Source of the DNA: Sphingosinithalassobacter sp. CS137
GTDB lineage: Bacteria > Pseudomonadota > Alphaproteobacteria > Sphingomonadales > Sphingomonadaceae
Assembly (NCBI RefSeq): GCF_014334115.1
Contig: NZ_CP060494.1
Span: 2,696,501-2,760,500, forward strand
Reading direction: 5' to 3'
Length of the DNA: 64,000 nucleotides
Shown here: positions 11,365 through 39,587 of the stretch, piece by piece
How positions within the stretch are numbered: the first letter of the stretch is position 1
Layout of the letters: each line of letters starts with the position of its first letter
Position numbers and translations under genes: made by a program
The notes under the pieces: model-generated
Seen by the model: the letters and a program-made list of their open reading frames with translations, nothing else
Databases searched by the model: none
Told to the model about the DNA's origin: nothing

Positions 11365-12507
11365 CTATAGCGATCGGCCGATCACTTCTTTCATGATCTC
11401 GTTCGTACCGCCGTAGATGCGGCTGACGCGGGCATCGCGCCAGAAGCGGGCGATCGGGTATTCGTTCATATAGCCGGCCCCGCCATGGAGTTGCAGCGCG
11501 GCGTCGCACACCTCGCCCTGCAATTCGGTGTGCCACAGCTTTGCCGCCGATGCCTCGGCGGTCGTCAGCTTGCCCTCGACATGGCGTTTCAACGCCCAGT
11601 CGATATGCGCCCAGCCGACCTGAAGCTTGGTCGCGAGATCGGCGAGGACGAATCGCGTATTCTGGAAGTCGAACACGGTTTTCCCGAACGCCTTGCGCTC
11701 CTTCACATAGGCGAGGCCTTCGTCGAACGCGCGCTGGGCAGCCGCCTGTGCGCCGATCGCGATCGACAGGCGCTCCTGGGGAAGCTGGCTCATCAGATAG
11801 ACGAAGCCCTTGCCTTCGTCGCCCAGGCAGTTGGTGATCGGAACGCGCACGTCGTTGAAGAACAGTTCCGATGTGTCGCCCGAATGCTGGCCGATCTTAT
11901 CAAGGTTGCGCCCACGCGCGAAGCCCTCGCGCGTCGCTTCCACCAGGATCAGTGAGATCCCCTTGGCGCCCAGTTCGGGATCGGTCTTCGCGACGACGAT
12001 GACGAGGTCGGCATTCTGGCCGTTGGTAATGTAGGTCTTCGACCCATTGATCACGTAATGGTTACCGTCCGTACGCGCGGTGGTCTTTACGCCCTGGAGG
12101 TCGGAGCCGGTGCCCGGCTCGGTCATGGCGATGGCAGTGATCGCCTCGCCGGAGATCATCTTGGGCAGCCACTCGCGCTTTTGCTCTTCCGAGCCGTAGT
12201 GAAGGACGTAGTCGGCGACGATATCGGACTGAAGTGTGATGCCGACTGCGGAGCCCGTATAGGCCAGCTCCTCGCCGATGACGGCATTGTAGCCGAAGTC
12301 GAGGCCTAGCCCGCCATATTCCTCCGGAAGGGTGGGACAGAGCAGGCCGGTCTCGCCGGCAGCGCGCCAGAATTCGCGATCGACGATCCCGGCCTCTTCC
12401 CAGCGTTCGAGATTGGGAATCAGCTTCGCCTCGAAGAACTTGCGCACCTGTTCGCGGAACAGCTCGTGATTCTCGTCGTACCCGGTGCGATCGGCGGTGT
12501 TCAGCAT
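11365..12507 (-). CDS. Acyl-CoA dehydrogenase (long-chain type)
   Basis: This 380-residue flavoprotein catalyses the first step of beta-oxidation, forming trans-2-enoyl-CoA and passing electrons to ETF. The signatures AIAMTEPGTGSDL (FAD/substrate site, about 129-141) and LHGGAGYMNEYPI are clear. The C-terminal IYGGTNEIMKEVI lacks the Glu of the medium-chain YEGT motif. It resembles the long-chain/isovaleryl class, where the catalytic Glu sits on an internal helix, here probably near FDEGLAYVKERKAFGK. A GGAG-rich ribosome site precedes the ATG. It lies 21 bp downstream of the hydratase/dehydrogenase fusion gene and probably shares its transcript. Confidence 0.9.
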   Translation of the reverse strand: MLNTADRTGYDENHELFREQVRKFFEAKLIPNLERWEEAGIVDREFWRAAGETGLLCPTLPEEYGGLGLDFGYNAVIGEELAYTGSAVGITLQSDIVADYVLHYGSEEQKREWLPKMISGEAITAIAMTEPGTGSDLQGVKTTARTDGNHYVINGSKTYITNGQNADLVIVVAKTDPELGAKGISLILVEATREGFARGRNLDKIGQHSGDTSELFFNDVRVPITNCLGDEGKGFVYLMSQLPQERLSIAIGAQAAAQRAFDEGLAYVKERKAFGKTVFDFQNTRFVLADLATKLQVGWAHIDWALKRHVEGKLTTAEASAAKLWHTELQGEVCDAALQLHGGAGYMNEYPIARFWRDARVSRIYGGTNEIMKEVIGRSL

Positions 12508-12528
12508 GTCTCTCTCCTCTCCGGTCGG

Positions 12529-14601
12529 TCAGCCGGCGTTGCGGACTTGGTGCAGCGGCTGGCCCTTCTCGGCAAGCTCGACAAGCAGTGGGGCCGGTGT
12601 CCGGCCGGTCTCCCGAAGACCAGCGATGACTCGGTCGAGACCGACAGTATCCGCCCAGAACAGCGGACCGCCCGTGTAGACCGGCCAGCCATAGCCATAG
12701 ACGAGCGCGATATCGACGTCGGATGCGCGGATCGGGATGCCTTCGCCGAGCAGCTTCGCGCCCTCGTTCACAACCGGGAACAGCAGTCGCTCGACAATCT
12801 CCTGCGCCGCGAATCTGCGGGGTGCCGAACCGGATTTCGCCTGGAAATCCCGGATCACCTTTTCGGCGACCTCCGAAGGAGTCGCGCGGCGCTGCTCGTC
12901 ATAATCGTAGAAGCCGCCCTGCTTCTTCTGCCCCCAGCGGTCCATCTCGCAGAGCACTTCGACGACCGTCGATCCGCTGCTGGTCGCCGCGTCCCAACCG
13001 ATGACGTCGAGGCCGACAAGGTCAAGCATCGCGAAAGGCCCCATCGCAAAGCCATAGTCGACGATCGCGGCATCGACATCCCAGGGCATCGGTCCTTCGA
13101 GCAGCAGCGCCTCGGCCGCGGCCATGCGCGGGGCCATCATGCGATTGGCGATGAAGCCGTCGCAGACGCGACTCAGCACCGCAACCTTGCCGATGCGGCG
13201 GCCGATTCCCATCGCGGTGGCCACGACCTCGGGCGCTGTCAGCTTGCCCCGCACGACCTCGAGCAGTTTCATCACGTTCGCGGGCGAGAAGAAGTGCATG
13301 CCGACGACATGGTCGGGACGCTTCGTAGACGCCGCGATCGCATCGACGTCGAGGAAGCTCGTATTGGTCGCCAAGACGGCATCCGGCTTGGCGATCCCGT
13401 CGAGCTTGCCGAAAATCTCCTGCTTCAGCTCGAGCTTTTCGAACACGGCCTCGATGATCAGATCGGCGTCGCCCAGATCCTCCATCGCCAGGGTCGGCGT
13501 CAGCAGCGCCATGCAGCGTTCCAGCTGCTCCGGCTTCATCCGCCCCTTGTCGACGGTGACCTGGTAGTTGCGCCGGATTGTCGCGACACCGAGATCGAGC
13601 GCATCCTGCCTCGCCTCGACCAGCGTCACCGGCATGCCGGCATTGAGGAAATTCATGGCGATGCCACCGCCCATCGTTCCGGCGCCGATCACGCCGACGG
13701 TGCGGACGTCGATCTGCTGGGTATTCCTGGGGATATCCGGCACCTTCGCCGCTTCGCGCTCGGCGAAGAAGAGGTAGCGTTGCGCCGCTGCTTCCCGGCT
13801 GGAGAACAGTTCGGCGAACAGCGCCGCCTCGCGCTTCATGCCTTCGTCGAACGGCAGCGTGACCGCCGCCTCGATCGTCCGGATGATGTTTTCGGGCGCC
13901 TTGAGGCCGCGAAAGGCGCGCGCGTGCTTCTGCCTGAATGCGGCGAAGAGCTCGGGCCCCGATTCCAGCTCCAGCCCCTCCGTCCGGTCGCGTACCCGGA
14001 TGAGCGGGCGATTTTCGTCGGCCGCAGCGCGCGCAAACGCCACTGCCTGTTCGACCAGCGCACCCTCTGCGACGATCTCGTCGACCAGCCCGGTTGCATG
14101 GGCCTTCGATGCGGAGACGGGGCGACCGAGCGCGATCATCTCGAGCGTGGTCGCCGCGCCGGTGATCCGGGGCAGCCGCTGCGTACCGCCGGCGCCGGGC
14201 AGGAGGCCAAGCGCGACTTCGGGCAGGCCCAGCTTCGCGGACGGCACGGCGACCCGGAAATGACAGACTAGTGCTACCTCCAGCCCGCCACCCAGCGCGG
14301 TTCCATGGAGCGCGGCGACGGTGGGTTTCGGGGACGACTCGATCAGGGCCTGGACCTGGTGAAGGTTGGGGCCGCGCGGAGAGGGATCGTCGAACTCGCG
14401 AATGTCGGCGCCGGCGATGAACGTGCGCCCCGCGCAGGCTAGGACGATGGCACGCACCTGGGGATCGGCGAGCGCCGATTCAAAGCCGAGCTGAAGTCCT
14501 TCGCGGACATCGGCAGACAGCGCATTCACGGGCGGTGAATCGAGCGTCAGGACCGCGACGCCGTCGTCGATCTCCAGTCTTGCCACCGGATTGAGTTCCA
14601 T
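12529..14601 (-). CDS. Bifunctional enoyl-CoA hydratase / 3-hydroxyacyl-CoA dehydrogenase
   Basis: A protein of about 690 residues combining steps two and three of beta-oxidation. The N-terminal crotonase domain (about 1-190) has the oxyanion-hole motifs AGADIREF and GGGLEVALVCH. The NAD-binding domain starts near residue 290 with VGVIGAGTMGGGIAMN (GxGxxG), and the catalytic His lies in GMHFFSPANVMK. I chose the ATG at 14601 because GGAG lies 8 nt upstream; an in-frame ATG at 14619 has no such site. The layout resembles peroxisomal-type bifunctional enzymes and FadJ. It is divergent from the SDR gene at 14673 across a gap carrying the shared operator-like motif. Confidence 0.9.
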   Translation of the reverse strand: MELNPVARLEIDDGVAVLTLDSPPVNALSADVREGLQLGFESALADPQVRAIVLACAGRTFIAGADIREFDDPSPRGPNLHQVQALIESSPKPTVAALHGTALGGGLEVALVCHFRVAVPSAKLGLPEVALGLLPGAGGTQRLPRITGAATTLEMIALGRPVSASKAHATGLVDEIVAEGALVEQAVAFARAAADENRPLIRVRDRTEGLELESGPELFAAFRQKHARAFRGLKAPENIIRTIEAAVTLPFDEGMKREAALFAELFSSREAAAQRYLFFAEREAAKVPDIPRNTQQIDVRTVGVIGAGTMGGGIAMNFLNAGMPVTLVEARQDALDLGVATIRRNYQVTVDKGRMKPEQLERCMALLTPTLAMEDLGDADLIIEAVFEKLELKQEIFGKLDGIAKPDAVLATNTSFLDVDAIAASTKRPDHVVGMHFFSPANVMKLLEVVRGKLTAPEVVATAMGIGRRIGKVAVLSRVCDGFIANRMMAPRMAAAEALLLEGPMPWDVDAAIVDYGFAMGPFAMLDLVGLDVIGWDAATSSGSTVVEVLCEMDRWGQKKQGGFYDYDEQRRATPSEVAEKVIRDFQAKSGSAPRRFAAQEIVERLLFPVVNEGAKLLGEGIPIRASDVDIALVYGYGWPVYTGGPLFWADTVGLDRVIAGLRETGRTPAPLLVELAEKGQPLHQVRNAG

Positions 14602-14641
14602 CCCTGTCTCTCCGTCCATCTTTGCGCTAGGGCGCTATCGG

Positions 14642-14662: not shown

Positions 14663-14672
14663 GGAGGTGGTG

Positions 14673-16474
<1,802 letters not shown>

Positions 16475-16475
16475 C

Positions 16476-17708
16476 ATGCACCTGAATTGGAGCCCCGAGG
16501 AACTGGCGTTTCGCGACGAAGTCCGCGCCTTCATCGCTGACGAACTGACGCCGGAACTGGCGCAGGCCGGGCGCATGGCGACCAGCGTCTATCCTGACCA
16601 CAAAGCGAGCATGGAATGGCAGCGCCGCCTCCACGCGCGCGGGTGGGCAGCGCCGCACTGGGCCCCAGAACATGGCGGGCAGGACTGGAGCGTTGCGCAG
16701 CATTACCTGTTCGATCGCGAGATGATAGAGGCGGGAGCCCCGTCGTTGTCGCCGATGGGCATCCACATGGTGGCGCACGTCATTATGCGGTTCGGCACCC
16801 CCGAACAGCAGGCATTCTTCCTGCCCCGCATCCTCACCGGCGAAGTGTTCTTCTGCCAAGGCTATTCGGAACCGGGTGCGGGGTCGGATCTCGCCTCGCT
16901 CCAAATGGCTGCGGTCGCGGACGGCGATGATTTCGTGCTGAACGGATCGAAAATCTGGACGACTCACGCGGCCGAGGCGAACTGGATGTTCGCGCTGGTC
17001 CGCACGTCGAAGCTCGATCGCCCCCAGCAGGGGATCACGTTCCTCCTCATCGAAATGGACGATCCGGGGATCGAAGTGCGTCCTCTGCTCATGACGTCGG
17101 GCGAGGAAGTGCAGGCGCAGGTGTTCTTCACCAATGTCCACGTGCCGCAATCCAACGTGCTCGGCGCGGTGGACCAGGGCTGGGGCGTCGCCAAATACCT
17201 GCTGGAATTCGAACGTGGCGGAAGTGCCTATGCGCCTGCGCTTCACGCGCGTGCGGACCGGATCGCCACCGAGGCCGCAGAAATGCACACGGGCGAAGGC
17301 GGGACTCTGATCGACAATCCGGCATTCGCGCACAAGCTCGCGGCAGCGCGCGCGCGCGTAGATACGCTCGAAATCCTCGAAATGCGGCTGCTCTCCCAGG
17401 CGTCCCGGGGCGGCAGTGTCGGTGCCCTGTCGTCGATGATGAAAGTGCTCGGCACCGAACTGGCCCAGCATCTGAGCGAGCTTGCGCTGGAGGCGGCCGG
17501 TCCGGCGGGAAGCGTCTATCAGCCGCATGCTGCGATGCCGGGTGGACCGACGCCGTACTTCACTCCACCGAAGGACGGCCATGTCGTCGGGGCGGCATGG
17601 CAGGCGCTGGCGCCGCTGCGCTATCTCAACGAGCGGGCGGGATCGATCTACGCCGGATCGAACGAAATCCAGCGCAACATTCTCGCCAAGATGGTGCTCG
17701 GCCTCTGA
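16476..17708 (+). CDS. Acyl-CoA dehydrogenase, PimC/FadE large-subunit type
   Basis: This 410-residue protein has WAAPHWAPEHGGQDW near residue 47, CQGYSEPGAGSDLASL near 128, and the C-terminal IYAGSNEIQRNILAK. This sequence style is typical of the larger subunit of heteromeric acyl-CoA dehydrogenases used on bulky substrates (pimeloyl, steroid and terpenoid acyl-CoAs). There is no YEGT Glu. The convergent gene ending at 17718 encodes a protein of the matching small-subunit type, 9 bp away, and is the likely partner (inference). Confidence 0.88.
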   Translation: MHLNWSPEELAFRDEVRAFIADELTPELAQAGRMATSVYPDHKASMEWQRRLHARGWAAPHWAPEHGGQDWSVAQHYLFDREMIEAGAPSLSPMGIHMVAHVIMRFGTPEQQAFFLPRILTGEVFFCQGYSEPGAGSDLASLQMAAVADGDDFVLNGSKIWTTHAAEANWMFALVRTSKLDRPQQGITFLLIEMDDPGIEVRPLLMTSGEEVQAQVFFTNVHVPQSNVLGAVDQGWGVAKYLLEFERGGSAYAPALHARADRIATEAAEMHTGEGGTLIDNPAFAHKLAAARARVDTLEILEMRLLSQASRGGSVGALSSMMKVLGTELAQHLSELALEAAGPAGSVYQPHAAMPGGPTPYFTPPKDGHVVGAAWQALAPLRYLNERAGSIYAGSNEIQRNILAKMVLGL

Positions 17709-17717
17709 CCTTCTCGT

Positions 17718-18860
17718 TCAGGCGGCTTTCGGGCGGCCGAGCGACGAGTAGCGGGCGAGGTGATGATCGACGGTGCCGAACTGCTGTTCGATTACAGTCG
17801 CGCGCTTGAAATAATGGCCGACGGCCAGCTCCTCGGTCATCCCCATCGCCCCGTGAAGCTGGACCGCATTCTGCCCCACGAAACGGAGCGATTCGCCGAG
17901 TGTCGCCTTCGCGGCGGAAACGGCGCGGGCGCGCTCCGCATCGGGTGCGCTCAGGTTCAGCGTAGCGAGAAAGCTTGCCGAGACTGCCTGCTCCAGCGCC
18001 ATGTACATGTCGACCATGCGGTGTTGCAGCGCCTGGAAACTCGCCAGCGGCTGGCCGAATTGGCGCCGCTGCCGGGTATAGTCGACCGTGTCCGCCATCA
18101 TCCGGCGCATCACGCCGACGCCCTCGGCGCACACGCCGGCGGTCCCCGCATCGATCGCGCGTTCGATATGCGGCAGCGCGTCGCCTTCGCCGGTCAGCAA
18201 CGCATCGCCAGGCAGGCACAGGTCGGTGAGGACAAGGTCGGCGGCGGGGCGTTCGTCGATCAGGCGATAGTCATGGCGGGTGATGCCATCGGCCCCAGCG
18301 TCGGCAAGGAACAGGGCAATGCCCTCGCGATCCCCCGCCGACCCGCCGGTGCGGGCCGAAATCAGCAGCTGATCGGCATCGGGCGCGCCGACGACGACGC
18401 TCTTGGTGCCGTTCAACAGCCAGCCATCGCCATCCGCCGCCGCCGTCGTATCGACATGGGCCAGCGTATAGCGGCTCCGCGGCTCGCCATGGGCAAGCGC
18501 GACCTGAGCCGAACCGGCGGCGATCCGCGCGAGCAGTGCGTCCGCCGTCTCGCCGCCGACACCGGAGAGCAGGCCACCCGATATCACCACCGTTTCCAAA
18601 TAGGGCGCAAAGACCAGCGCTTCGCCGAGCGCTTCCATCACGACCATCGCTTCCACCGGGCCGCCGCCCATGCCGCCCACCCGTTCGGGCAGCGGTGCGG
18701 CGAGGATGCCGAGCGTTTCGGCGAAGTCGCGCCACAGCGCCGCATCGGCACCACCCGCGCGAAGCCGCTTGCCGCGCGTTTCGAAACTATAGCTGTCGCG
18801 CAGGTACCGCTCCAGCATCTCCTTCAGGATCGCTTGTTCGTCGCTCAGCCCGAAATCCAC
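17718..18860 (-). CDS. Acyl-CoA dehydrogenase, PimD/FadE small-subunit type
   Basis: This 380-residue protein starts MDFGLSDEQAILKEMLERY and has TRQRRQFGQPLASFQALQH and LHGAMGMTEELAVGHYFKR. It resembles the smaller subunit of two-gene acyl-CoA dehydrogenases, with a more diverged middle domain and no clear TEPxxGSD motif. Such proteins usually work as alpha2-beta2 heterotetramers with a PimC-like partner. Two candidates flank it: the convergent gene at 16476-17708 and the divergent gene at 18941. The upstream gap with the latter carries motif copy c. Confidence 0.85.
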   Translation of the reverse strand: MDFGLSDEQAILKEMLERYLRDSYSFETRGKRLRAGGADAALWRDFAETLGILAAPLPERVGGMGGGPVEAMVVMEALGEALVFAPYLETVVISGGLLSGVGGETADALLARIAAGSAQVALAHGEPRSRYTLAHVDTTAAADGDGWLLNGTKSVVVGAPDADQLLISARTGGSAGDREGIALFLADAGADGITRHDYRLIDERPAADLVLTDLCLPGDALLTGEGDALPHIERAIDAGTAGVCAEGVGVMRRMMADTVDYTRQRRQFGQPLASFQALQHRMVDMYMALEQAVSASFLATLNLSAPDAERARAVSAAKATLGESLRFVGQNAVQLHGAMGMTEELAVGHYFKRATVIEQQFGTVDHHLARYSSLGRPKAA

Positions 18861-18940: not shown

Positions 18941-20119
18941 ATGACCGCCCTTGGTGCCACCGCCGAAGCGCTGCGCCATGAAGTGCGCAACTTCCTCGCC
19001 CATGAGTTTCCGCAGGACGTGCTGGCGAAAGCGCGCGCCGGTACGGTGCCGGACCGGGACGACCACATCCGAATGCAGCGGGCGCTCCATGCGCGCGGCT
19101 GGCTGGCGCCCGCCTGGCCCGCGGAACATGGCGGCCCAGGCTGGACTCCTGCCGAACGCTATGTGTTCGAACAGGAGATGGAGCGGGCGGGGGCGCCGCC
19201 GATCATCCCGATGGGGATCATCTATGTCGGCCCGGTGATCTACACCTTCGGGACGCCGGACCAGCAGCGCCGCTGGCTGCCCGATATCCTCGAGAGCCGA
19301 TCGATCTGGGCACAGGGCTATTCGGAGCCTGAGGCAGGTTCGGATCTCGCCTCGCTCTCGATGCGCGCGGAGCGGGCGGGCGACCGGTATCGCGTGACCG
19401 GCACCAAGATATGGACGACACAGGCGCATTGGGCGGACTGGATCTTCTGCCTCGTCCGCACCTCGCGCGAGGCGCGGCGCCAAGGCGGGATCAGCTTCCT
19501 GTGCATCGAAATGGACAGCCCTGGCGTCACCGTCCACCCGATCGTGACGCTCGACGGCGTGCACCACCTCAACCGGGTCGAGTTTCGCGATGTGGAAGTG
19601 CCGCTCGACCAGCGGATCGGCGAGGAGGGCGCGGGATGGCGTTATGCCAATGCGCTGCTGCGCAACGAGCGGATTTCCTACGCGCACGTCGCCCGCAAGC
19701 GTGCCGACCTCGATCTTCTGGAGGGCTGGGCGCAGCGTATGGCGCTGGGCGGCGAGGCTTCGGCGATCGCGCGGGAGGCGGCGGCGTGCCGGGTGGCGGT
19801 GGACATGCTCGAAATGCGGGTCCTCCGGCTGCTGGGGTTGGGTGACAACGCCGCGCTGGCCGATGCCGCGTCGCTCAAGATAGAAGCGACCGAGCTTGCC
19901 CAGCGGATCGCCACGCTCGGCCTGCGGCTCGCCGGCCCCGCCGCGGGCGCGTTCGTGCCGCGCCTCGACGGGAGATGGGGGGAACGGCTTGCCACCCTAC
20001 CACCCGAGGCCGTGCTGTGGACCGCCAACTATCTCTTCGAGCGCGCGGGCGGCATCTACGGGGGAACGACCGAGATACAGAAGAACATTCTGTGGCGGAT
20101 GATCGAAGGTAGTCGATAG
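18941..20119 (+). CDS. Acyl-CoA dehydrogenase, PimC/FadE large-subunit type (second copy)
   Basis: This 392-residue paralogue of the gene at 16476 has WLAPAWPAEHGGPGWTP, AQGYSEPEAGSDLASL and the C-terminal IYGGTTEIQKNILWRM. The N-terminal helices are shorter than in classical acyl-CoA dehydrogenases. It probably oxidises a bulky or branched acyl-CoA at a different round of degradation from its paralogue (inference). AGAGG precedes the ATG. It converges with the phosphotransferase-like gene 20 bp beyond its stop. Confidence 0.88.
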   Translation: MTALGATAEALRHEVRNFLAHEFPQDVLAKARAGTVPDRDDHIRMQRALHARGWLAPAWPAEHGGPGWTPAERYVFEQEMERAGAPPIIPMGIIYVGPVIYTFGTPDQQRRWLPDILESRSIWAQGYSEPEAGSDLASLSMRAERAGDRYRVTGTKIWTTQAHWADWIFCLVRTSREARRQGGISFLCIEMDSPGVTVHPIVTLDGVHHLNRVEFRDVEVPLDQRIGEEGAGWRYANALLRNERISYAHVARKRADLDLLEGWAQRMALGGEASAIAREAAACRVAVDMLEMRVLRLLGLGDNAALADAASLKIEATELAQRIATLGLRLAGPAAGAFVPRLDGRWGERLATLPPEAVLWTANYLFERAGGIYGGTTEIQKNILWRMIEGSR

Positions 20120-27609: not shown

Positions 27610-27616
27610 GCCGGTG

Positions 27617-30446: not shown

Positions 30447-31079
30447 TCAGCGGTGCAGGAGGATACTTTCCATCAGCAGTTCGGTGATGTGATCGGCATA
30501 TCCGCGCCGCATCTCGTCGGTTATCTCGTCGATCCCGAAGGCGTATTTTAGCGAGTGGCGGGCGTGGAACAGATGGTCGCACGCGCCGATCAGCGAAAAG
30601 TAGAAGAGCATGGGATCGACGTCGCGGAATGCGCCTTCGCGCACACCCTGTTCGAGAATTGCCTTTTGCGCCGCCGCGAGAGGCTTGGTGAACCGCTCGG
30701 CGATGAAGCGGGCGGTTTCCGAATCGGTATCGATCGACAGCGCGCCGACCAGGCGGTTCATGTAGGGATAGCGGTAATAAGTTTTGATCACGCCGGAAAT
30801 GTGGTGCCGCATCTTCTGCGGGGCCGGCATGTCTGCCTCGACCAGCGCGTCCAGGTTGCCGAACGTACCGCCGGCATCGCGCTCGAGCAGGGCCATGAAC
30901 AGGCCGGCCTTGTTGCCGAAATGATAGCGGATCAGCGCGGAGTTGAGACCGGAGCGCTGTGCGATGTCGACGAAAGTGACGTCCACCGAATTGCGTTCGG
31001 TCATCAACGCACTGGTGGCGTTGAGCAATGCGTCGGCCGACGCGATCCCACTATCCTTGCGCTGCGCTGTACTCGCCAT
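30447..31079 (-). CDS. TetR-family transcriptional regulator
   Basis: This 210-residue protein has an N-terminal helix-turn-helix (VTFVDIAQRSGLNSALIRYHFGNKAGLF, about 34-61) and an all-helical ligand domain with a TetR-C-like tail. The ATG at 31079 gives the full HTH with normal family length. It is transcribed after the LuxR-type gene (35-bp gap). As the only TetR in the cluster it is the best candidate to bind the six-copy motif, with an acyl-CoA or pathway intermediate as ligand (inference). Confidence 0.9.
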   Translation of the reverse strand: MASTAQRKDSGIASADALLNATSALMTERNSVDVTFVDIAQRSGLNSALIRYHFGNKAGLFMALLERDAGGTFGNLDALVEADMPAPQKMRHHISGVIKTYYRYPYMNRLVGALSIDTDSETARFIAERFTKPLAAAQKAILEQGVREGAFRDVDPMLFYFSLIGACDHLFHARHSLKYAFGIDEITDEMRRGYADHITELLMESILLHR

Positions 31080-31114: not shown

Positions 31115-31846
31115 TCAACGTCGTGTCGCGACGAATCCGAGTTCCGCCGCACGCTGCACCGTTCTCAATCGTCCCATTTCGCCGAGCTTGGCGCTGGCCT
31201 TGCGGAGGTGGAACCGCACTGTCGGTATCGCCACCTCCAGGATGGTGCCGATTTCCCCATCGGTTTTTCCTGCCGCGGCGAGTTTCAGGCACTGGATCTC
31301 GCGGCGCGTGAGCGGGTGGACGAGAATCGGCGACGGTCCGTGATTCACGACCTCGCATGCCGCGACGAACCGCAACGCTAGGCCATGCAGTGCGACGGCG
31401 TGTTCGCGGTACAGGACAACCAGGTCCGGCCGTCCGGTGTCGCTTGCCCACAGTACCGCACCGATTGTCGTCCCCGGCAGATGAACCGGCGCGACGATCG
31501 CCGCACGGACGGCGTAATCCTTCTCCCGCGCCTGCTCGATCAACTCGTCGCTCAGGGCCATCGTCTGCCATCCGCCGATTTCGCCGCGATCGTAATAAAA
31601 GGGCTCTGCCGTGTGCCGTACCACCGCGATGATGGCGTTGCGCAGCGCAAGGTCGCTCCAGTTCCAATAGTCGCGTGCGTCCGCCGTGAAGTCGAACAGG
31701 GCGCCGATCGGTTGCCCGCGCTCGTCAAGCGCGGCGCGGGCGCTGCTGATGTCGGCACAGGCGGCAACCAGCGGCAGGCCCAGCCGGTGCCCGGCCTCCT
31801 GAATTTCCGCCGCCAGCAATCCGATCGTTTGCGTGTCCTGCGCCAC
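31115..31846 (-). CDS. LuxR-type regulator (solo)
   Basis: This 243-residue protein has an N-terminal autoinducer-domain-like region (NWSDLALRNAII and DRGEIGGWQTMALSDELIEQA) and a C-terminal LuxR HTH (LTRREIQCLKLAAAGKTDGEIGTIL, about 181-205). No luxI-type synthase gene is in the window. Several residues of the acyl-homoserine-lactone pocket are not clearly conserved, so it may sense another ligand. It is divergent from the TonB-dependent receptor across 118 bp containing motif copy f. Confidence 0.85.
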   Translation of the reverse strand: MAQDTQTIGLLAAEIQEAGHRLGLPLVAACADISSARAALDERGQPIGALFDFTADARDYWNWSDLALRNAIIAVVRHTAEPFYYDRGEIGGWQTMALSDELIEQAREKDYAVRAAIVAPVHLPGTTIGAVLWASDTGRPDLVVLYREHAVALHGLALRFVAACEVVNHGPSPILVHPLTRREIQCLKLAAAGKTDGEIGTILEVAIPTVRFHLRKASAKLGEMGRLRTVQRAAELGFVATRR

Positions 31847-31919: not shown

Positions 31920-31964
31920 CCAAATTGCGGCGTTCGACCGCGGGGGACAGTGGGAGGAAGTGGT

Positions 31965-34460
31965 ATGCGCAAGGCAGGTTTTCTCATCGCCGCGGCACCG
32001 GCTGCATTGTTCGCCTCCATGCCTGCCTCGGCGCAGGACGCCGCGGCGCAGTCCGGTCAGGACGAAACGCCCGTCGCGCGCACGCAGTCGGTGGGCGATG
32101 AAATCGTGGTGACCGCGCAGCGACGCAGCGAATCGATCAACGACGTCCCAATGGCGGTGCAGGCGCTTTCCGGCGATTCGTTGCGCGACCTGCGCATCGA
32201 CAATGTGCAGTCGCTCGCCACCAACGTGCCCGGTCTTGCGGTGGCGCCCGCCTATTCCGGTGTGCCGATCTTCACGCTGCGCGGCATCGGCTTCAACAGC
32301 GTCAACATCACCGCGACCTCGACGGTCGGCATCTACCAGGATGAACTGGCCTATCCCTATCCCTCAATGGCGAGCGGTCCGCTCTTCGATCTGGAGCGTG
32401 TCGAGGTGCTGAAGGGTCCGCAGGGCACGCTATATGGCCGTAACACCACCGCCGGCCTTGTCGACTTCATCACCAACAAGCCGCAGCTGGGGGCCGTCAC
32501 CGGCTCCGGTACGGTCGAGGTCGGCAACTACCAGACCTATAACTTCGAGGGCGCGCTCAACCTTCCGCTCGGCGATACCGCGGCGATCCGCTTCGCCTTC
32601 CGTTCCGAGAACAGCGACGAGGGTTGGCAGATCGACCAGAGCCGCGGCGAGAGGCTGGGCGAAAAGGATCGCCTTGCGGGTCGCGTCTCGCTACTGTTCC
32701 AGCCGTCCGACACGTTCGAGGCGTTCGCATCCGTATCGGGCTGGCGCGATCGGTCCGAAACCCAGGCGGGGCAGGCGATCAGCCTCAACCTCACCAATCG
32801 CCTCACGCAGGCCTCTCCAGCGGTCGGCCCAGGCGATTTCAACATTCCCGGCCTGCTGACCTATCTCGCGAACAATCAGCCAGACGAGGCCAGCGACGCG
32901 GGCTTCGCCCCGTCCTCTCAGCTCGGCGCGACTGTCGGCCTGGCGCCGGGCATCGGAGCCCCGCGTGCCGACAGCGACTTCTTTTCGGCTCAGCTCCGTC
33001 TGACGGTTCGGCCGAATTCCGAACTCTCGATCATCTCGATGACCGGCTACAGCGATTTCTCGCGCCAGGACGTCGTCGATTTCAGCGGCGTCCCCTATGA
33101 AATCGTCGCTACCGAATATGATGCGAGCATCGAGACCTTCTCGCAGGAGCTGCGGTTCGAGGGCGACCATCCGGGCTTCCGCTGGTCGCTGGGCGGATAT
33201 TATGCCCACGACGAGCTGAAGGAAGGCAGCGTCTTCCTGATCGGCGACAACTCGTCGGTCCGCTATCTTCGCGCATCGACGCTGGGCATCCTTGCCAACC
33301 CGGTGCTGAACGCGATTTTCAACACCGCTGGGTACACCCCGGCGGATGTAGCGGTCGCCTTCCGTGCAGGCGGTGGCAGCGCGACCGGCTATTCCGAAAC
33401 CTATAGCGGCTTTGCAAATGCCGAATTCGATGTCAGCGACAACTTCACCATTTCGGGCGGCGTGCGGATCGGAATGGATTATACCGAGCTGGACGGCTGT
33501 TCGATCGACGTGAACGGCAACTACCAGGCGATCGTCAATACCGCCGGACGGGCGATCATCTTCCAGACCTATGGCGTGATCGCACCGCTGGTCGTGCCCG
33601 GCGGCTGCACCACCTACGATCCCACGACCAATCAGGACGTGCTCGTCCACGAAGAGCTGAACGAGAGCAACGTCTCCGGCCGGCTCGCATTCCAGTACAC
33701 GCCCAGTGATGCGACGCTGATCTATGCCTCTGCGGCGCGCGGTGTGAAGTCGGGCAATATCCCGATCGTGCCCGCCAACCGCGCGGTGCAGTTCACTCCG
33801 GCCACGCAGGAATTGCTCACTGCCTATGAAGTCGGGATCAAGCAGGAACTCGGCGATCGCTTCGCCCAGGTGAACGTGTCCGCCTTCTTTTATGATTATC
33901 AGGACAAGCAGTTCAGCTCTTACGTTCCGGACCCGACCTTCGGTGCGCTCCAGCGGCTGGTCAACATTCCGGAATCGCACGCCTGGGGTATCGATGCGGA
34001 AGTGACGCTGCGTCCGACGCCGGCGTTCGTGCTGACCTGGAACGGCACGTATCTGAACACTGAAATCGAAAATTATGTCGGTGCCAACGCCGCCGGCATT
34101 CCGACCGACTTCTCGGGTGCGGAATTTTCGTTCGCGCCTGAATTCTCGACCAGTGCGACCGCGACGCTGACGCTGCCGCTGTCGTCCAGCCTCAATTTCC
34201 AGGCGACGCTCAATGGTAGCTACCGCACGGAGACCCATTCGGACTTCGGCGAGGATCCGCTGTTCCGCATCCCGGACTATGCGCTGGTGAACGGCAGCTT
34301 CGGCATTGCCAGCGCCAATGGCGGCTGGGCCCTGACCGTCTGGGGCCGGAATATCACCGACACCTATTACTGGACGTCGGTCGTCGACAACCAGAACCTC
34401 AACGTCCGTTATGCCGGGATGCCGCGCACCTACGGTGCTTCCTTCACCTTCAACTTCTGA
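31965..34460 (+). CDS. TonB-dependent outer-membrane receptor
   Basis: This 831-residue protein starts MRKAGFLIAAAPAALFASMPASAQ, a signal peptide with cleavage after AQ. A TonB-box-like GDEIVVTAQRR is followed by a plug domain (about 50-165; VEVLKGPQGTLYGRNTTAGLV) and a 22-strand-type barrel ending in the aromatic YGASFTFNF. GGGAGGAAG precedes the ATG. Sphingomonad receptors of this class import many hydrophobic or bulky compounds besides siderophores. Its place between the regulators and the DUF2236 gene suggests uptake of the cluster's substrate. Confidence 0.93.
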   Translation: MRKAGFLIAAAPAALFASMPASAQDAAAQSGQDETPVARTQSVGDEIVVTAQRRSESINDVPMAVQALSGDSLRDLRIDNVQSLATNVPGLAVAPAYSGVPIFTLRGIGFNSVNITATSTVGIYQDELAYPYPSMASGPLFDLERVEVLKGPQGTLYGRNTTAGLVDFITNKPQLGAVTGSGTVEVGNYQTYNFEGALNLPLGDTAAIRFAFRSENSDEGWQIDQSRGERLGEKDRLAGRVSLLFQPSDTFEAFASVSGWRDRSETQAGQAISLNLTNRLTQASPAVGPGDFNIPGLLTYLANNQPDEASDAGFAPSSQLGATVGLAPGIGAPRADSDFFSAQLRLTVRPNSELSIISMTGYSDFSRQDVVDFSGVPYEIVATEYDASIETFSQELRFEGDHPGFRWSLGGYYAHDELKEGSVFLIGDNSSVRYLRASTLGILANPVLNAIFNTAGYTPADVAVAFRAGGGSATGYSETYSGFANAEFDVSDNFTISGGVRIGMDYTELDGCSIDVNGNYQAIVNTAGRAIIFQTYGVIAPLVVPGGCTTYDPTTNQDVLVHEELNESNVSGRLAFQYTPSDATLIYASAARGVKSGNIPIVPANRAVQFTPATQELLTAYEVGIKQELGDRFAQVNVSAFFYDYQDKQFSSYVPDPTFGALQRLVNIPESHAWGIDAEVTLRPTPAFVLTWNGTYLNTEIENYVGANAAGIPTDFSGAEFSFAPEFSTSATATLTLPLSSSLNFQATLNGSYRTETHSDFGEDPLFRIPDYALVNGSFGIASANGGWALTVWGRNITDTYYWTSVVDNQNLNVRYAGMPRTYGASFTFNF

Positions 34461-34505
34461 ACGGGCGGGAGTTGGGGTCAGCGAGTTCGAATTGGGAGTA
34501 ACGCC

Positions 34506-35432
34506 ATGAATGACGCCGCACTTTCCATGCCAGCAGCCGGCCATGTCGGCCCGGCTGCGGACGCCCCGGCGCCGACGCGGAAGAAGAAGCCGGTGATTCC
34601 GCGCGTGGATTTCCTCAATCCGCCCGGCGCGCCTGCCTATTACGAGCCGGACTCGATCGCATGGGACGTGTTCAAGAACCCGGTGTCGTTGTTCGTCGGC
34701 GGAATAACGGCGGTGCTGCTCGAACTCGGTGAGCCGCGCGTGCGCGCGGGAGTGTGGGGACACTCGATCTTTCCTACCGATCCCGTCACTCGAATGCGGC
34801 GTACGGGGATGGTCACGCATGTGAGCGTCTATGCCCCCCGCGCCGTCGCCGACAAGGTGATCGGTGGTGTCGTACGGATGCACGAAAAGGTGCGCGGTAC
34901 GACTTCCGAGGGTGAGGCCTACCATGCAAACGACCCGGAGTTGCTTGATTGGGTGCAGGCCACCGTGGGCTATGGTTTTATGGAGGCCTATGCTGCGTTC
35001 TGCCGTCCGCTGAGCAATGCCGACCGCGACCGGTCTTATCGGGAATCGAAGCCGATCGCCGACCTTTTCCTCGCACGCGGCGCGCCGACCAGCCTGGCGG
35101 AGCAGCAGCAGCAGTTCGAGGCGATGCGCCCACGAATCCAGTCGCACCCCATCGTCTTCGAGTTTCTCGACATCGTCAGGAGGACGCCGGCCGTTCCCGG
35201 GCCGTTGCGCCCGTTCCAGTGGATGATGGTACGCGGCGGCATCTCTCTGTTGCCGCTCTGGGCGATCGAACGGCTGGAGCTCGACGGGGAGGAATATCAC
35301 CTCGCTTGGTGGGAGCGGCGTATCCTGAAGGCGATGGGCGCAGCGTTCGAACGCATCCACATCAAGAATGCGCCTCCGGCGCAGGCGTCGCGCAGGCTGG
35401 GCCTGCCGTCGAACTACCTTTACCGCGGATAG
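34506..35432 (+). CDS. DUF2236 oxygenase-like protein (MpaB / latex-clearing superfamily)
   Basis: This 308-residue protein has the DUF2236 pattern: GVWGHSIFPTDPVTRMRRT (83-100), then VTHVSVYAPRAVADKVIGGVVRMHEKVRG (His126) and YHANDPELLDWVQATV. In the superfamily, Lcp (latex clearing protein) cleaves polyisoprene with haem b and MpaB cleaves a farnesyl side chain. His126 is the probable haem-region residue. The common WVH is WVQ here (Gln151). No Sec or Tat signal is seen, so it is probably cytoplasmic. It lies 45 bp after the receptor gene and upstream of the aldehyde oxidoreductase genes. Confidence 0.78.
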   Translation: MNDAALSMPAAGHVGPAADAPAPTRKKKPVIPRVDFLNPPGAPAYYEPDSIAWDVFKNPVSLFVGGITAVLLELGEPRVRAGVWGHSIFPTDPVTRMRRTGMVTHVSVYAPRAVADKVIGGVVRMHEKVRGTTSEGEAYHANDPELLDWVQATVGYGFMEAYAAFCRPLSNADRDRSYRESKPIADLFLARGAPTSLAEQQQQFEAMRPRIQSHPIVFEFLDIVRRTPAVPGPLRPFQWMMVRGGISLLPLWAIERLELDGEEYHLAWWERRILKAMGAAFERIHIKNAPPAQASRRLGLPSNYLYRG

Positions 35433-35782: not shown

Positions 35783-36313
35783 ATGGAGCAACTCGTCCGA
35801 CCGACAGGGATCGAGTGCGAGATCGCACGCCCGACGTCCCTCACCATCAATGGGGAAACCGGTGAATACGGCATCCCTGCCTGGACTTCGCTGCTCGACT
35901 TCCTGCGCGAGCGGCTCGGGCTGACCGGCACCAAGAAGGGCTGCGACCACGGCCAATGCGGCGCCTGCACCGTCCTGATCGACGGGCGGCGGATCAACTC
36001 CTGCCTGAAGCTTGCCGTCACGCTCGACGGTGCGGAGATCACCACGATCGAGGGGTTGGCAGGAAAGGATGGGACGCTGCATCCGCTGCAGGAAGCCTTT
36101 GTGCGGCATGACGGCTTTCAGTGCGGCTATTGCACGCCGGGACAGATCTGCTCGGCGCAGGGCCTGCTCAACGAGGGCAAGGCCGACAGCCGCGACAGCA
36201 TCCGCGAGTATATGAGCGGCAACATCTGCCGCTGCGGCGCCTATCCCAACATCGTCGATGCCGTCGAGGACGTGCTGCGTGGCCGGACGAGCGAGCCGAG
36301 GATGCCGGAATGA
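35783..36313 (+). CDS. [2Fe-2S] subunit of PaoA-type aldehyde oxidoreductase
   Basis: This 176-residue electron-transfer subunit of a xanthine-oxidase-family enzyme has a plant-type cluster bound by Cys54, Cys59, Cys62 and Cys74, and a second cluster by Cys114, Cys117, Cys149 and Cys151. AGAGAAGGGA lies 8 nt before the ATG at 35783; an upstream TTG is less likely. E. coli PaoA has a Tat leader but this protein begins directly at the ferredoxin-like domain, so the complex is probably cytoplasmic. Its stop overlaps the next start (ATGA). Confidence 0.92.
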   Translation: MEQLVRPTGIECEIARPTSLTINGETGEYGIPAWTSLLDFLRERLGLTGTKKGCDHGQCGACTVLIDGRRINSCLKLAVTLDGAEITTIEGLAGKDGTLHPLQEAFVRHDGFQCGYCTPGQICSAQGLLNEGKADSRDSIREYMSGNICRCGAYPNIVDAVEDVLRGRTSEPRMPE

Positions 36314-37323
36314 ATCGCTTCTCCTATGCCCGCCCCACCACGGTGGCCGAGGCGCTTTCCGAGGTTCGCGGCGAGGCAGTGCGTTTCCTGGCCGGCGGCA
36401 CCAATCTCGTCGATCTGATGCGCGAGGAGGTCGAACGGCCTGTGAAGCTGGTCGACATCAATCGCCTGCCGCTCAGAGACATCGAGGAGACCGAGGGCGG
36501 GGGGCTGAAGATCGGCGCGCTGGTGCCCAATTCGGACCTCGCCTGGGATGCGCGGATCGAGAGCCGCTATCCGCTGCTCTCCGCTGCGCTGCTCGCGGGC
36601 GCCAGCCCGCAGCTGCGCAACGCGGCGACCACCGGCGGCAACCTGCTTCAGCGCACGCGCTGCTATTATTTCTACGACGTTGCCACCGCCTGCAACAAAC
36701 GCGATCCCGGTAGCGGTTGTCAGGCGATCGGCGGGCTCACGCGGCTGCACGCCATCCTTGGTGCCAGCGAGCACTGCATCGCCACCCATCCCTCCGATAT
36801 GTGCGTCGCGCTGCAGGCGCTCGACGCCCGGGTTCACGTCGAAGGGCCCGAGGGCGCGCGCGCGATTGCGTTCCAGGATTTTCACCGCCTCCCCGGTGAT
36901 CGGCCGCAGGACGATACGACTCTCAGGCCCGGTGAACTGGTCACCGCGATCGAACTGCCCGCCGAACGCTTCGACATGCATTACACCTATCTGAAACTGC
37001 GCGACCGCCAGTCCTATGCCTTCGCGCTGGTGTCCGTCGCGGCGGCGCTGAGGATGGAGGACGACGTCATCGGCGAGGTCCGGCTGGCGCTGGGCGGCGT
37101 GGCGCACAAGCCCTGGCGCAACCGCGAGGCCGAAGCGCTGCTGGTCGGCAAGGCGCCATCGGCAGACGCCTATGCCGAAGTGGCCGACGCCATTCTCGCG
37201 GAGGCGCGCGGGCAGGGCACGAACGACTTCAAGATCCCGCTCGCGCGTCGCGCCATCCTGCGCGCGCTCGACCAGGCGGCCAACGCCAATCCGCAGAGCC
37301 AGATCGAGAAGCGGATCGCATGA
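36310..37323 (+). CDS. FAD subunit of PaoB-type aldehyde oxidoreductase
   Basis: This 337-residue CoxM/PaoB-type subunit has the FAD-pyrophosphate loop LAGGTNLVDLM (28-38) and TTGGNLLQRTRC. Cys118, Cys128, Cys137 and Cys156 (TRCYYF, ACNKRDPGSGC, HC) form the extra [4Fe-4S] site known from PaoB and from 4-hydroxybenzoyl-CoA reductase. It overlaps its neighbours by four bases at both ends, so the three subunits are co-translated. It passes electrons from the molybdenum site via Fe-S to FAD. Confidence 0.92.
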   Translation: MNRFSYARPTTVAEALSEVRGEAVRFLAGGTNLVDLMREEVERPVKLVDINRLPLRDIEETEGGGLKIGALVPNSDLAWDARIESRYPLLSAALLAGASPQLRNAATTGGNLLQRTRCYYFYDVATACNKRDPGSGCQAIGGLTRLHAILGASEHCIATHPSDMCVALQALDARVHVEGPEGARAIAFQDFHRLPGDRPQDDTTLRPGELVTAIELPAERFDMHYTYLKLRDRQSYAFALVSVAAALRMEDDVIGEVRLALGGVAHKPWRNREAEALLVGKAPSADAYAEVADAILAEARGQGTNDFKIPLARRAILRALDQAANANPQSQIEKRIA

Positions 37324-39587
37324 GGGAACCCAGCACCATGACGATGCAGCCGACCATGACGAAAGCCCGCTTCGGCACGCCGCTCAGCCGCGTCGATGGC
37401 CCGGCGAAGGTCACCGGGCAGGCGAAATATGCGGCGGAGTTCGCGCGTGCCGACCTCCTGCACGGCCACGTCCATACTGCCCGGATCGCCAAGGGAAAGA
37501 TCAAGCGCATCGACATGGCGCGGGCGCTGGACGTCGCCGGCGTCGTCGATGTCATTACGCACGAGAACCGGCCCCACGTGACGTGGTTGCCGATCAAGAT
37601 GAAGGATATGGTTGCGCCGCCGGTCGGCAGTCCGTTCCGGGCGCTGTACGGGCCCGACATCATCTATTCGGGTCAGCCGATCGCGCTGGTGGTGGCCGAG
37701 AGCGAGGAGATCGCCCGCTACGCCTCCAGCCTGTTGGAAGTCGAATATGAGTGGGCTGAATTCCGGACCGATCTGAACGAAGCGCGCGAGGACGGCTTCA
37801 GCCCGCTCATCCCGCGGGTGGGGTATCACAAGCCGAAGTCGCGCGGCGACGGAGAGGGGGCGTTCGCCGCCTCTCCCGTGCAGGTCGCGGGCGAATACCA
37901 TCTGATGCCCGAGCACCACAATCCGATGGAGATGTTTGCCTCCACTGTCTTCTGGGAGAATGACGGCACGATCACCATCTACGACAAGACGCAAGGGGTG
38001 AAGAACAGCCACTGGTACGTCTGCAGCGCGCTGGGATTCGATCGCGACAAGGTGCGCGTGCTTTCCCCCTTCGTGGGCGGTGCCTTCGGATCGGGCCTGC
38101 GGCCGCAATACCAGCTCTATCTCGCGGGTCTCGCCGCCAAGAAGCTGGAGCGATCGGTTCGCGTGGTCATGACGCGGCAGGAGATGTTCGGCCACGGCTA
38201 TCAGCCCGAATGCTACCAGACGGTCAAGCTGGGCGCCGAGGAGGACGGGCGGCTCAACGCGATCGTCAACTCGGCGGTGACGGCGACCTCCAGCTTCGAG
38301 CATTACATGGAGACGATCGTCAATTGGGGCGCGCTCACCTATCGCTGCGAGAACGCCAAGCTCGACTACGAGATCGCGGCGATCGACACCTTTACGCCAT
38401 GTGACATGCGCGCGCCGGGCGGGGCGACGGGCATGAACCTGTTCGAGATCGCGATGGACGAGCTGGCCTATGCCTGCGGCATCGACCCGCTCGAGCTGCG
38501 CCTGCGCAACTATGCCGAGCGCGAGCAGATCAAGGACAAGCCCTGGACTTCCAGGGCGCTGCGCGAATGCTACGAACAGGGCGCGCGCAGGTTCGGATGG
38601 GAGAAGCGCAGCCACGAGCCGCGCTCGATGCGCGATGGGCGCGAGCTGATCGGCTGGGGCATGGCGACCGGCGTCTGGGAGGCGATGATGGGTCCGACCA
38701 GCGTGCGGGCGGTGCTGTCGGCCGACGGCTCGCTGAAGGTCGGCACCGCGACCGCCGACATGGGGCCGGGCACCTACACGATGATGACCCAGATCGCCGC
38801 CGCCACGACCGGGCTGCCGGTCGAGAAGATCACCGCCGAGCTCGGCGATACCGAACTGCCGTTCTCGCCGGTGGAGGGTGGCTCGTGGACCGCGGCCTCG
38901 ACCGGCTCGGCGGTGCAGAAGGCGTGCGAATCGCTGCTCGAGGAGCTGTTCGACAAGGCCCGCCACCTGGACGGCTGCCCGTTGTCCGGCGCGCACCACG
39001 ACGACATCGACTTCGCCGATGGCCATATCGTCCTCAAGGACAATCCTGCGATTGGGATGCGCTTCGACGAAATCCTCGCCGCGGCCGGGATGGACGAGCT
39101 GGAAGTCAAGGAAATGGCCCGGCCCGGCGTGTTCAACATGATGAAGAAGGCGCGCAATACGCATTCGGCCGTCTTCGTCGAGGTGCGCGTCGACGAAGAG
39201 GTCGGGATGGCGCGCGTTACCCGCATCGTCGACGCGGTCGCCGCCGGAAGGATCATCAATCCCAAGACCGCACGCAGCCAGATCCTGGGCGGCTGCGTCT
39301 TCGCCATCGGCATGGCGCTGACGGAGGAGACGCTCGCCGATCACCGGATCGGCCGCTTCATGAACCACAATCTCGCCGAATATCACGTGCCGGTGAATGC
39401 CGACGTGCCCGACATCGACGTGATCTTCGTCGAGGAACACGACACCGAGGTCAGCCCGATCGGCGTCAAGGGGGTGGGCGAGATCGGCATCGTCGGCACC
39501 GCAGCAGCTATCGCCAACGCCCTGTTCCATGCGACCGGTAAGCGCATCCGCGATTTGCCGATCACCATCGACAAGCTGATGACGTAA
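37320..39587 (+). CDS. Molybdenum-cofactor subunit of PaoC-type aldehyde oxidoreductase
   Basis: This 755-residue catalytic subunit has the N-terminal GTPLSRVDGPAKVTGQAKYAAE, the cofactor-binding FVGGAFGSGLRPQ and GGSWTAASTGSA regions, and the catalytic Glu721 in KGVGEIGIVG. The family oxidises aldehydes to carboxylic acids with water as oxygen source; E. coli PaoABC prefers aromatic aldehydes. The likely role here is oxidation of aldehydes made by the upstream DUF2236 oxygenase (inference). Maturation needs MCD cofactor insertion by an XdhC/PaoD-like protein, which is not encoded in this window. Confidence 0.92.
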   Translation: MREPSTMTMQPTMTKARFGTPLSRVDGPAKVTGQAKYAAEFARADLLHGHVHTARIAKGKIKRIDMARALDVAGVVDVITHENRPHVTWLPIKMKDMVAPPVGSPFRALYGPDIIYSGQPIALVVAESEEIARYASSLLEVEYEWAEFRTDLNEAREDGFSPLIPRVGYHKPKSRGDGEGAFAASPVQVAGEYHLMPEHHNPMEMFASTVFWENDGTITIYDKTQGVKNSHWYVCSALGFDRDKVRVLSPFVGGAFGSGLRPQYQLYLAGLAAKKLERSVRVVMTRQEMFGHGYQPECYQTVKLGAEEDGRLNAIVNSAVTATSSFEHYMETIVNWGALTYRCENAKLDYEIAAIDTFTPCDMRAPGGATGMNLFEIAMDELAYACGIDPLELRLRNYAEREQIKDKPWTSRALRECYEQGARRFGWEKRSHEPRSMRDGRELIGWGMATGVWEAMMGPTSVRAVLSADGSLKVGTATADMGPGTYTMMTQIAAATTGLPVEKITAELGDTELPFSPVEGGSWTAASTGSAVQKACESLLEELFDKARHLDGCPLSGAHHDDIDFADGHIVLKDNPAIGMRFDEILAAAGMDELEVKEMARPGVFNMMKKARNTHSAVFVEVRVDEEVGMARVTRIVDAVAAGRIINPKTARSQILGGCVFAIGMALTEETLADHRIGRFMNHNLAEYHVPVNADVPDIDVIFVEEHDTEVSPIGVKGVGEIGIVGTAAAIANALFHATGKRIRDLPITIDKLMT

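Follow-up and report, generated by a model that had tools for sequence, protein, structure and literature searches.

A block of 23 genes (positions 11365 to 39587) in the genome of Sphingosinithalassobacter sp. CS137 plausibly serves the catabolism of oligo-isoprenoids resembling the products of the rubber oxygenases RoxA and RoxB acting on polyisoprene, in a genome lacking a Rox gene of its own. About two chances in three may be given to this reading. The block resides in a 64,000-nucleotide stretch of contig NZ_CP060494.1 (2,696,501 to 2,760,500), hereafter called the window, to which all positions refer; the host assembly is a single contig of 3.19 Mb, 99.98% complete. One putative oxygenase gene of the block, encoding a DUF2236 protein, is found near Rox genes in three distant lineages; in two of these (Sphingomonas and Steroidobacteraceae) it is accompanied by one TonB-dependent receptor, one LuxR regulator and one acyl-CoA ligase. 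A preliminary description of the window had put forward isoprenoid-type catabolism. The comparison supports it, the nearest DUF2236 relatives being mostly located near RoxA/RoxB-like genes, and rubber or oligo-isoprenoid catabolism is, as a prediction from comparative genomics, well supported. If true, the reading supplies candidates for the downstream part of Gram-negative rubber breakdown, namely a receptor for uptake, an oxygenase probably located in the cytoplasm and perhaps an exit through levulinyl-CoA, all of them single-gene hypotheses in culturable strains.

The DUF2236 protein and its association with Rox genes

The DUF2236 protein (34506..35432) matches PF09995, the MpaB/Lcp catalytic domain, at 155 bits (curated cut-off 23), and no signal peptide is seen by eye at its N-terminus or in 13 related loci. 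Its earlier placement among Lcp/MpaB-superfamily proteins devoid of an evident signal is thus upheld. Residues R96, R99, T100 and H126 are invariant in 29 sequences, and have been paired with the Lcp haem-site residues R164, K167, T168 and H198 by motif and helix position, not by residue-level superposition. The modelled structure shows the globin-type fold of Lcp, found also in the t-anethole oxygenase of Stenotrophomonas maltophilia (8s1j); with Foldseek by itself, all E-values exceeded 0.1. The structural link depends on the model because, among PDB sequences, phmmer (E up to 1) returned nothing and a profile search (E up to 10) only unrelated weak matches, with Lcp found by neither. The protein is probably a cytoplasmic oxygenase and, given motif and modelled fold, a candidate haem-b enzyme cleaving C=C bonds, haem binding and activity being predicted. 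Identification as Lcp proper (LcpK30-like) is not borne out, as these searches revealed no sequence similarity to Lcp and no Tat (twin-arginine translocation) signal is seen by eye.

In a sample of 199 genomes of the window's family, own genome included, some DUF2236 match occurs in 110, and only two others reach at least 50% identity (57% and 51%). A scan of named genomes yielded 372 DUF2236 relatives, 80 of which were kept as named loci; these reach no farther than 10 kb to either side of DUF2236, some far less, and a more distant Rox gene would be missed. The 12 best by E-value belong to Novosphingobium profundi (2), Sphingomonas kyeonggiensis (3), Steroidobacteraceae (3), Myxococcota (3) and a sphingomonad metagenome-assembled genome. 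Their recurring neighbours are RoxA-like dihaem proteins (PF21419), endowed with two CxxCH motifs and a MauG-type motif which reads PYMHNGSVP in Steroidobacteraceae, PYFHNGSVP in Myxococcota and PFLHNGSVP in S. kyeonggiensis. The S. kyeonggiensis protein scores 1099 bits against PDB 4b2n ('70 KDA PROTEIN'), which we take to be RoxA of strain 35Y, and is the sole match of a RoxA query in each of three S. kyeonggiensis genomes. Identity above 70% between a S. kyeonggiensis Rox and RoxA of strain 35Y is stated in an excerpt of PMC10837239, and the first two versions of the MauG-type motif appear in the Rox protein table of PMC6311187.

DUF2236 and Rox genes are separated by about 6-7 kb in S. kyeonggiensis, by 4-6 kb in Steroidobacteraceae, and lie within about 0.3 kb of each other in three Myxococcota loci. 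Nine of the 80 named loci have Rox matches above 200 bits, and all nine belong to the 12 loci in which DUF2236 matches best. In six Steroidobacteraceae and Myxococcota genomes the single DUF2236 match at E 1e-20 is always the Rox-linked copy. RoxB-like proteins (E 1e-60) are rare, being found in 3 of 369 genomes of the class, including G205, and in 3 of 120 genomes of the family of G205, all three already known as linked genomes. Full-length Rox matches were relied on because PF21419, a 39-position model, taken alone passes its cut-off in 13 of 27 genomes, at times with short, weak matches. Other PF21419 matches remote from DUF2236 (S. kyeonggiensis, G204, G206, G207, G208, G210, G222, G223), examined in part, have no adjoining DUF2236.

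A tree was built from 76 of 104 prepared rows by a quick search, with support given by SH-aLRT (approximate likelihood-ratio test) only; rows L126-L152 (27 rows, for size) and G012 (apparently the same contig as L083) were left out, and locus L216, drawn from a wrong contig, was also unused. The window protein falls within a 12-row clade (SH-aLRT 94; 98 for a 13-row grouping). Nine of the 11 other members of the clade are Rox-linked, and the Rox state requires two changes on the tree. The set LuxR-receptor-DUF2236-FadD is kept in 8 of the 11 clade relatives; among the 80 named loci, a receptor above 300 bits lies near DUF2236 in 16, LuxR in 11 and a FadD ligase above 500 bits in 15. The tie between TonB receptor and oxygenase gene, already suspected, is borne out by this neighbourhood.

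Outside the window, the own genome hosts a second DUF2236 gene (G000:C1:2917189-2917992; L059/L060), 48% identical to the first and placed in a different clade, with no receptor of the cluster's kind within 20 kb. In six Caulobacter loci (L099, L101, L106, L118, L119, L120) a DUF2236 gene of another group has a FadD homologue (58-60%) immediately upstream, and no receptor or Rox match occurs in the stretches examined; these loci hint at a wider DUF2236-ligase partnership.

Gene content and counterpart blocks

Families were assigned by gene calling and Pfam scans; some proteins were also compared with NCBIfam (best 25 families per protein) and with PDB sequences. The block comprises five acyl-CoA dehydrogenases, a FadJ-type fusion, a stand-alone crotonase, two short-chain dehydrogenases/reductases (SDR), a thiolase, an aldehyde dehydrogenase, an acyl-CoA ligase, a family III CoA-transferase/racemase, TetR and LuxR regulators, the receptor, DUF2236 (PF09995) and a three-subunit Mo/Fe-S/FAD oxidoreductase. 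All the families named in the preliminary description are thus present; an NMO-type flavoprotein (15434-16474), an APH-type kinase (20139-21200) and a glutathione S-transferase (22378-23028) were absent from its list. The features are given below, with the Pfam scan as basis unless stated; percentages are identities to counterparts in the S. kyeonggiensis RoxA block, except where other genomes are named.

11365..12507, minus: acyl-CoA dehydrogenase (ACAD1); 86%, adjoining FadJ
12529..14619, minus: FadJ-type crotonase/3-hydroxyacyl-CoA dehydrogenase fusion; 71%
14667..15425, plus: SDR1; 72-73%
15434..16474, plus: NMO/FabK-like flavoprotein, a possible enoyl/dienoyl-CoA reductase; Pfam, NCBIfam FabK 243 bits (below cut-off 453); 83-84%
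16476..17708, plus: pimC-like acyl-CoA dehydrogenase 1; Pfam, NCBIfam (below equivalog cut-off); 72-73%
17718..18860, minus: pimD-like acyl-CoA dehydrogenase; Pfam, NCBIfam (below equivalog cut-off); 57-59%
18941..20119, plus: pimC-like acyl-CoA dehydrogenase 2; Pfam, NCBIfam; no separate counterpart
20139..21200, minus: LvaA-like kinase, APH fold; Pfam, PDB 3dxp 380 bits, ACAD11 8v3v 262 bits; HGDFRADN motif
21197..22381, minus: LvaC/ACAD11-type dehydrogenase; PDB ACAD11 8v3u 180 bits; R-x7-HCMR, Asp in YDGPTE; 83%
22378..23028, minus: glutathione S-transferase; only 34%
23042..23962, minus: enoyl-CoA hydratase; 78%
23959..25428, minus: aldehyde dehydrogenase; 70-72%
25585..26760, plus: 3-ketoacyl-CoA thiolase; 80%
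26827..27609, plus: SDR2, labelled HSD10-type in the preliminary description; 91-92%
27614..28639, plus: alpha-methylacyl-CoA racemase; Pfam, PDB MCR 355 bits; 76%
28751..30364, minus: acyl-CoA ligase (FadD); 63-71% near DUF2236 in S. kyeonggiensis and Steroidobacteraceae
30447..31079, minus: TetR regulator
31115..31846, minus: LuxR-type regulator; near DUF2236 in 11 of 80 named loci
31950..34460, plus: TonB-dependent receptor; signal-peptide-like N-terminus by eye; match above 300 bits near DUF2236 in 16 of 80 named loci
34506..35432, plus: DUF2236/MpaB_Lcp_cat haem oxygenase candidate; no evident signal peptide
35783..36313, plus: 2Fe-2S subunit (PaoA-like); no Tat signal seen
36310..37323, plus: FAD subunit (PaoB-like); scanned from 36121
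37320..39587, plus: Mo subunit (PaoC-like); Pfam, NCBIfam PaoC 591 bits, PDB 5y6q 517 bits, 5g5h PaoC 403 bits
39811..39886, minus: tRNA-Phe, the cluster border, outside the pathway; ARAGORN

Blocks were compared by one-way tblastn matches and by neighbourhood in 60-kb stretches. In each of two S. kyeonggiensis genomes a segment of about 35 kb holds counterparts, 56-92% identical, of 17 window genes out of 23, RoxA being placed between the receptor/DUF2236 half and the FadJ/NMO/pim half. N. profundi (one genome) carries counterparts of 14 of the 23 genes in one block, and a 20-kb locus of Maricaulis parjimensis 15 of the 23, both without Rox. Since counterparts cluster in these three species, the gene grouping is, by this comparison, more than chance. 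In two Steroidobacteraceae, homologues of NMO (62%), FadJ (32-34%) and ACAD1 (53-54%) lie near RoxA. By this comparison, the window holds a Rox-less form of a RoxA-associated catabolic block.

The likeness to the S. kyeonggiensis locus has limits. This locus differs from the window in hosting RoxA and, recurrently between DUF2236 and RoxA (L074-L076), a GMC oxidoreductase, a second CoA-transferase, a thiolase-like protein and a second ligase; in turn, its block lacks PaoA, PaoB, PaoC, a close glutathione S-transferase, a second pimC gene and a kinase next to the dehydrogenase. The RoxB-like loci of Steroidobacteraceae (L078-L080) resemble the window in having LuxR, receptor, DUF2236 and FadD side by side, and differ in the RoxB-like gene, in a Mo hydroxylase of two subunits, and in few beta-oxidation matches within 60 kb. 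The Steroidobacteraceae RoxA loci L185 and L193 also carry, beside the NMO, FadJ and ACAD1 homologues, an APH-type kinase 28-30% identical to that of the window, with no dehydrogenase of the HCMR type described below in the stretch examined.

The claim that the system has no described counterpart was too strong: a Gram-negative C=C-cleaving oxygenase of the same fold has been solved (8s1j), although only 10% identical to the window protein and acting on a different substrate class, and the S. kyeonggiensis Rox has been published in PMC10837239, the excerpt of which mentions the protein without describing the cluster. In the open-licence PMC literature, as represented by the excerpts at hand, no paper was recognised as describing the cluster or a Rox-linked DUF2236. 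The Streptomyces lcp-oxiAB system, as presented in an excerpt of PMC8235351, similarly combines an oxygenase of the DUF2236 superfamily with a Mo hydroxylase, and has TetR-type regulators upstream of lcp. Yet, Lcp is secreted by the Tat route and attacks the polymer, and OxiAB is a heterodimer, whereas the window oxygenase lacks a signal and the window Mo enzyme has three subunits.

Predicted degradation route and competing explanations

The polymer itself is not a likely substrate, given a genome without Rox: the own genome (G000) gave 0 PF21419 and 0 RoxA protein matches, and RoxA-like proteins (E 1e-20) occur in 0 of the 199 genomes of the family, though the same query does match three S. 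kyeonggiensis genomes. For the same reason the strain probably uses imported oligo-isoprenoids or a similar terpenoid. According to this view, isoprenoid aldehydes or ketones would enter through the TonB receptor, encoded beside the LuxR and TetR regulators, and the cytoplasmic DUF2236 protein, as a haem-b oxygenase, would shorten the chains. The Mo oxidoreductase and/or the aldehyde dehydrogenase may then convert the aldehyde end into an acid, to be activated by FadD as CoA ester. Beta-oxidation of 4-methyl-4-enoyl and 2-methylacyl chains to acetyl-CoA and propionyl-CoA would involve the dehydrogenases, NMO flavoprotein, racemase, hydratases, SDRs and thiolase, proteins whose families are assigned and whose roles are predicted. 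The methyl-ketone end would survive as 4-oxopentanoyl (levulinyl)-CoA or, if every C=C bond is cleaved, as 4-oxopentanal; an SDR may reduce it, and a LvaA/LvaC-type pair may turn the product into a normal beta-oxidation intermediate.

The chemistry of the RoxA product fits this sketch. According to an excerpt of PMC6797691, the product is 12-oxo-4,8-dimethyltrideca-4,8-dienal (ODTD), a keto-aldehyde with two 4-methyl-alkene-type units. By carbon count, beta-oxidation of ODTD acid should yield acetyl-CoA plus propionyl-CoA per isoprene unit, and end at 4-oxopentanoyl-CoA; full C=C cleavage of ODTD should give 4-oxopentanal instead. The racemase may be needed, because the first route passes through 2-methylacyl-CoA. 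For the Gram-negative rubber degrader Steroidobacter cummioxidans, a pathway downstream of RoxA/RoxB was put forward from the genome sequence, as a 'predicted' scheme, in the text seen of PMC5979037, where no complete Mce uptake system is reported and FadL and 'numerous' TonB receptors are the candidates for uptake; a later paper, again as far as its excerpt goes, regards the pathway as 'elucidated' through experimental work combined with in silico analysis (PMC10837239).

The exit step is suggested by two adjoining genes. The dehydrogenase at 21197..22381 carries an Arg placed eight residues ahead of the HCMR His (RLAPARLTHCMR), and an Asp for Glu in YDGPTE; the kinase carries the APH motif HGDFRADN, and its best PDB match, 3dxp, is named putative acyl-CoA dehydrogenase. 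The residues expected of LvaA/LvaC (ACAD10/11-type) proteins are thus found in both. The kinase start (GTG at 21200 was chosen, ATG at 21254 is also possible) overlaps the end of the dehydrogenase gene, the ATG of which overlaps the stop of the glutathione S-transferase gene. In Pseudomonas putida levulinic acid is broken down via LvaA and LvaC, related to ACAD10/11; excerpts of PMC12440821 and PMC11342911 show for the lva system and mammalian ACAD10/11 the same association of a kinase with a dehydrogenase having R-x7-HCMR and Asp at the catalytic place, with the difference that the window pair sits within an isoprenoid-type cluster. Action on the levulinyl-CoA end expected of such chains would fit the pair. 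An HCMR-type gene (83%) occurs in the S. kyeonggiensis RoxA block, and two Myxococcota Rox blocks host one with an adjoining kinase (57% and 37%). In the 37% case the search pattern for the Asp stretch is unmatched. The Paraliomyxa dehydrogenase keeps HCMR, the Asp pattern being unmatched.

The Mo oxidoreductase and the racemase are less telling. Identity with the periplasmic aldehyde oxidoreductase PaoABC proper was discarded, as the Mo subunit scores 591 bits against a PaoC equivalog cut-off of 1180 and the 2Fe-2S subunit shows no Tat signal; a two-subunit OxiAB-type hydroxylase was discarded as well, since the window has three genes, FAD subunit included. The aldehyde-oxidising role may recur with different enzymes, because Steroidobacteraceae loci carry a two-subunit Mo hydroxylase instead of PaoABC. 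The CoA-transferase-family protein is closest, among PDB sequences, to the 2-methylacyl-CoA racemase MCR (355 bits), and its stretches AGHDINY (His) and VGDFGGG (Asp), which we take to be those of the active site, align with MCR/AMACR.

Several observations weigh against the oligo-isoprenoid role. Besides the own genome, two N. profundi genomes with the same core and the Maricaulis genome gave no match to the RoxA query. Rox-like genes (38-46% identical pieces) occur without a DUF2236 match in G249 and G262, the Rox loci of which contain no DUF2236 or receptor of the cluster's kind (the G262 contigs being only 3 and 5 kb), so that the DUF2236 link holds in only 3 of 5 distinct Rox-bearing genomes in the class and Steroidobacteraceae samples. 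In G222 and G223, PF21419 matches above cut-off lie away from the DUF2236 loci and are unmatched by the RoxA query. The three Myxococcota loci lack receptor, LuxR and ligase beside DUF2236, the DUF2236 frame of L081 has an in-frame stop, and the RoxA match of G200 includes two stop codons in the aligned stretch, although an open frame of 676 residues at this place contains the two haem motifs. Neither PaoB nor PaoC is matched in 23 family regions or the 80 named loci, where only the 2Fe-2S subunit has distant matches; on this sample PaoABC is rejected as a conserved partner of DUF2236, and the co-occurrence anticipated in the preliminary description is not supported. Many of the beta-oxidation genes are widespread. 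The racemase, found in 140 of 199 family genomes, own included, is therefore no specific marker of the block, contrary to the DUF2236-racemase link proposed earlier. The kinase/dehydrogenase pair, or parts of it, are found in sphingomonad regions without Rox (G002, G126); in S. kyeonggiensis the kinase lies outside the RoxA block, and no HCMR-type dehydrogenase was found in the 60 kb examined of N. profundi or in the Steroidobacteraceae stretches examined. These absences weaken the pair as a universal mark of Rox blocks.

That such a block also exists where Rox is absent points to cross-feeding or to a broader role with isoprenoids. Along the first line, Gram-negative rubber-type catabolism could tentatively be drawn as a two-stage process, which is possible rather than likely: Rox, own or of a neighbour, would act outside; dedicated TonB import would be followed by cuts of a cytoplasmic Lcp-superfamily enzyme towards 4-oxopentanal, by oxidation to levulinate by the Mo enzyme, and by an ACAD11-type phosphorylation-elimination pair, Rox-less strains being cross-feeders. 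Along the second line, a cluster of the same type may be tuned in a Rox-less strain to another isoprenoid (squalene, a sesqui- or triterpenoid, phytol-like, geranyl or farnesyl compounds), DUF2236 cleaving a prenyl C=C bond. The lack of Rox in the own genome and N. profundi is compatible with this, as are the 10 of 16 receptor-bearing named loci without Rox in the stretch examined, a count which also speaks against a tight Rox association, and the cleavage of a farnesyl chain by fungal MpaB, described in an excerpt of PMC12724181. Yet, the high likeness to a RoxA-bearing block (17 of 23 genes, 56-92%) and the nesting of DUF2236 among Rox-linked sequences make a different isoprenoid rather unlikely.

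A generic island for branched-chain fatty-acid beta-oxidation, adjoining an unrelated receptor-DUF2236 pair, would account for the wide occurrence of the racemase and similar parts, and for G095, where a DUF2236 gene of a different clade has ALDH-thiolase-SDR2-ECH-TetR homologues at a distance of about 5-10 kb; it is quite improbable, as both halves of the block are found together in S. kyeonggiensis, N. profundi and Maricaulis despite the rearranged order. Dehydrogenases, thiolases and racemases of these kinds also occur in steroid pathways, and the thiolase scores 363 bits to a steroid thiolase model, below its cut-off of 515; but a cluster for steroid or bile-acid side chains (or other cyclic acids) with DUF2236 as accessory is most improbable, since no steroid-specific model reaches its cut-off among the best 25 families per protein, Pfam reveals no ring-cleavage family in the cluster (the search being limited to the cluster, not the whole genome), and the counterpart blocks, annotated in part, carry Rox.

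Genomic setting

The putative oligo-isoprenoid cluster may have been acquired. In the congener G091 similarity resumes at tRNA-Phe, with the same order on the tRNA side, and the window genes left of the tRNA are unmatched in the 14.9 kb beyond; the GC content is 0.63-0.64 at 28-36 kb against 0.66-0.70 in the flanks. Both features suggest that the cluster is an acquired island. A second congener, G155, is less informative, with no tRNA in the stretch examined. The rest of the window shows no exact repeat (at least 14 bases) of the tRNA-Phe 3' part; no search for integrases was made. Immediately to the left of the cluster, a predicted autotransporter of 2614 residues (3089-10933) features Ig-like, TIG and fn3 domains and a C-terminal autotransporter beta-domain, and a phage tail collar domain protein (2219-2803) is encoded near the left end of the window.

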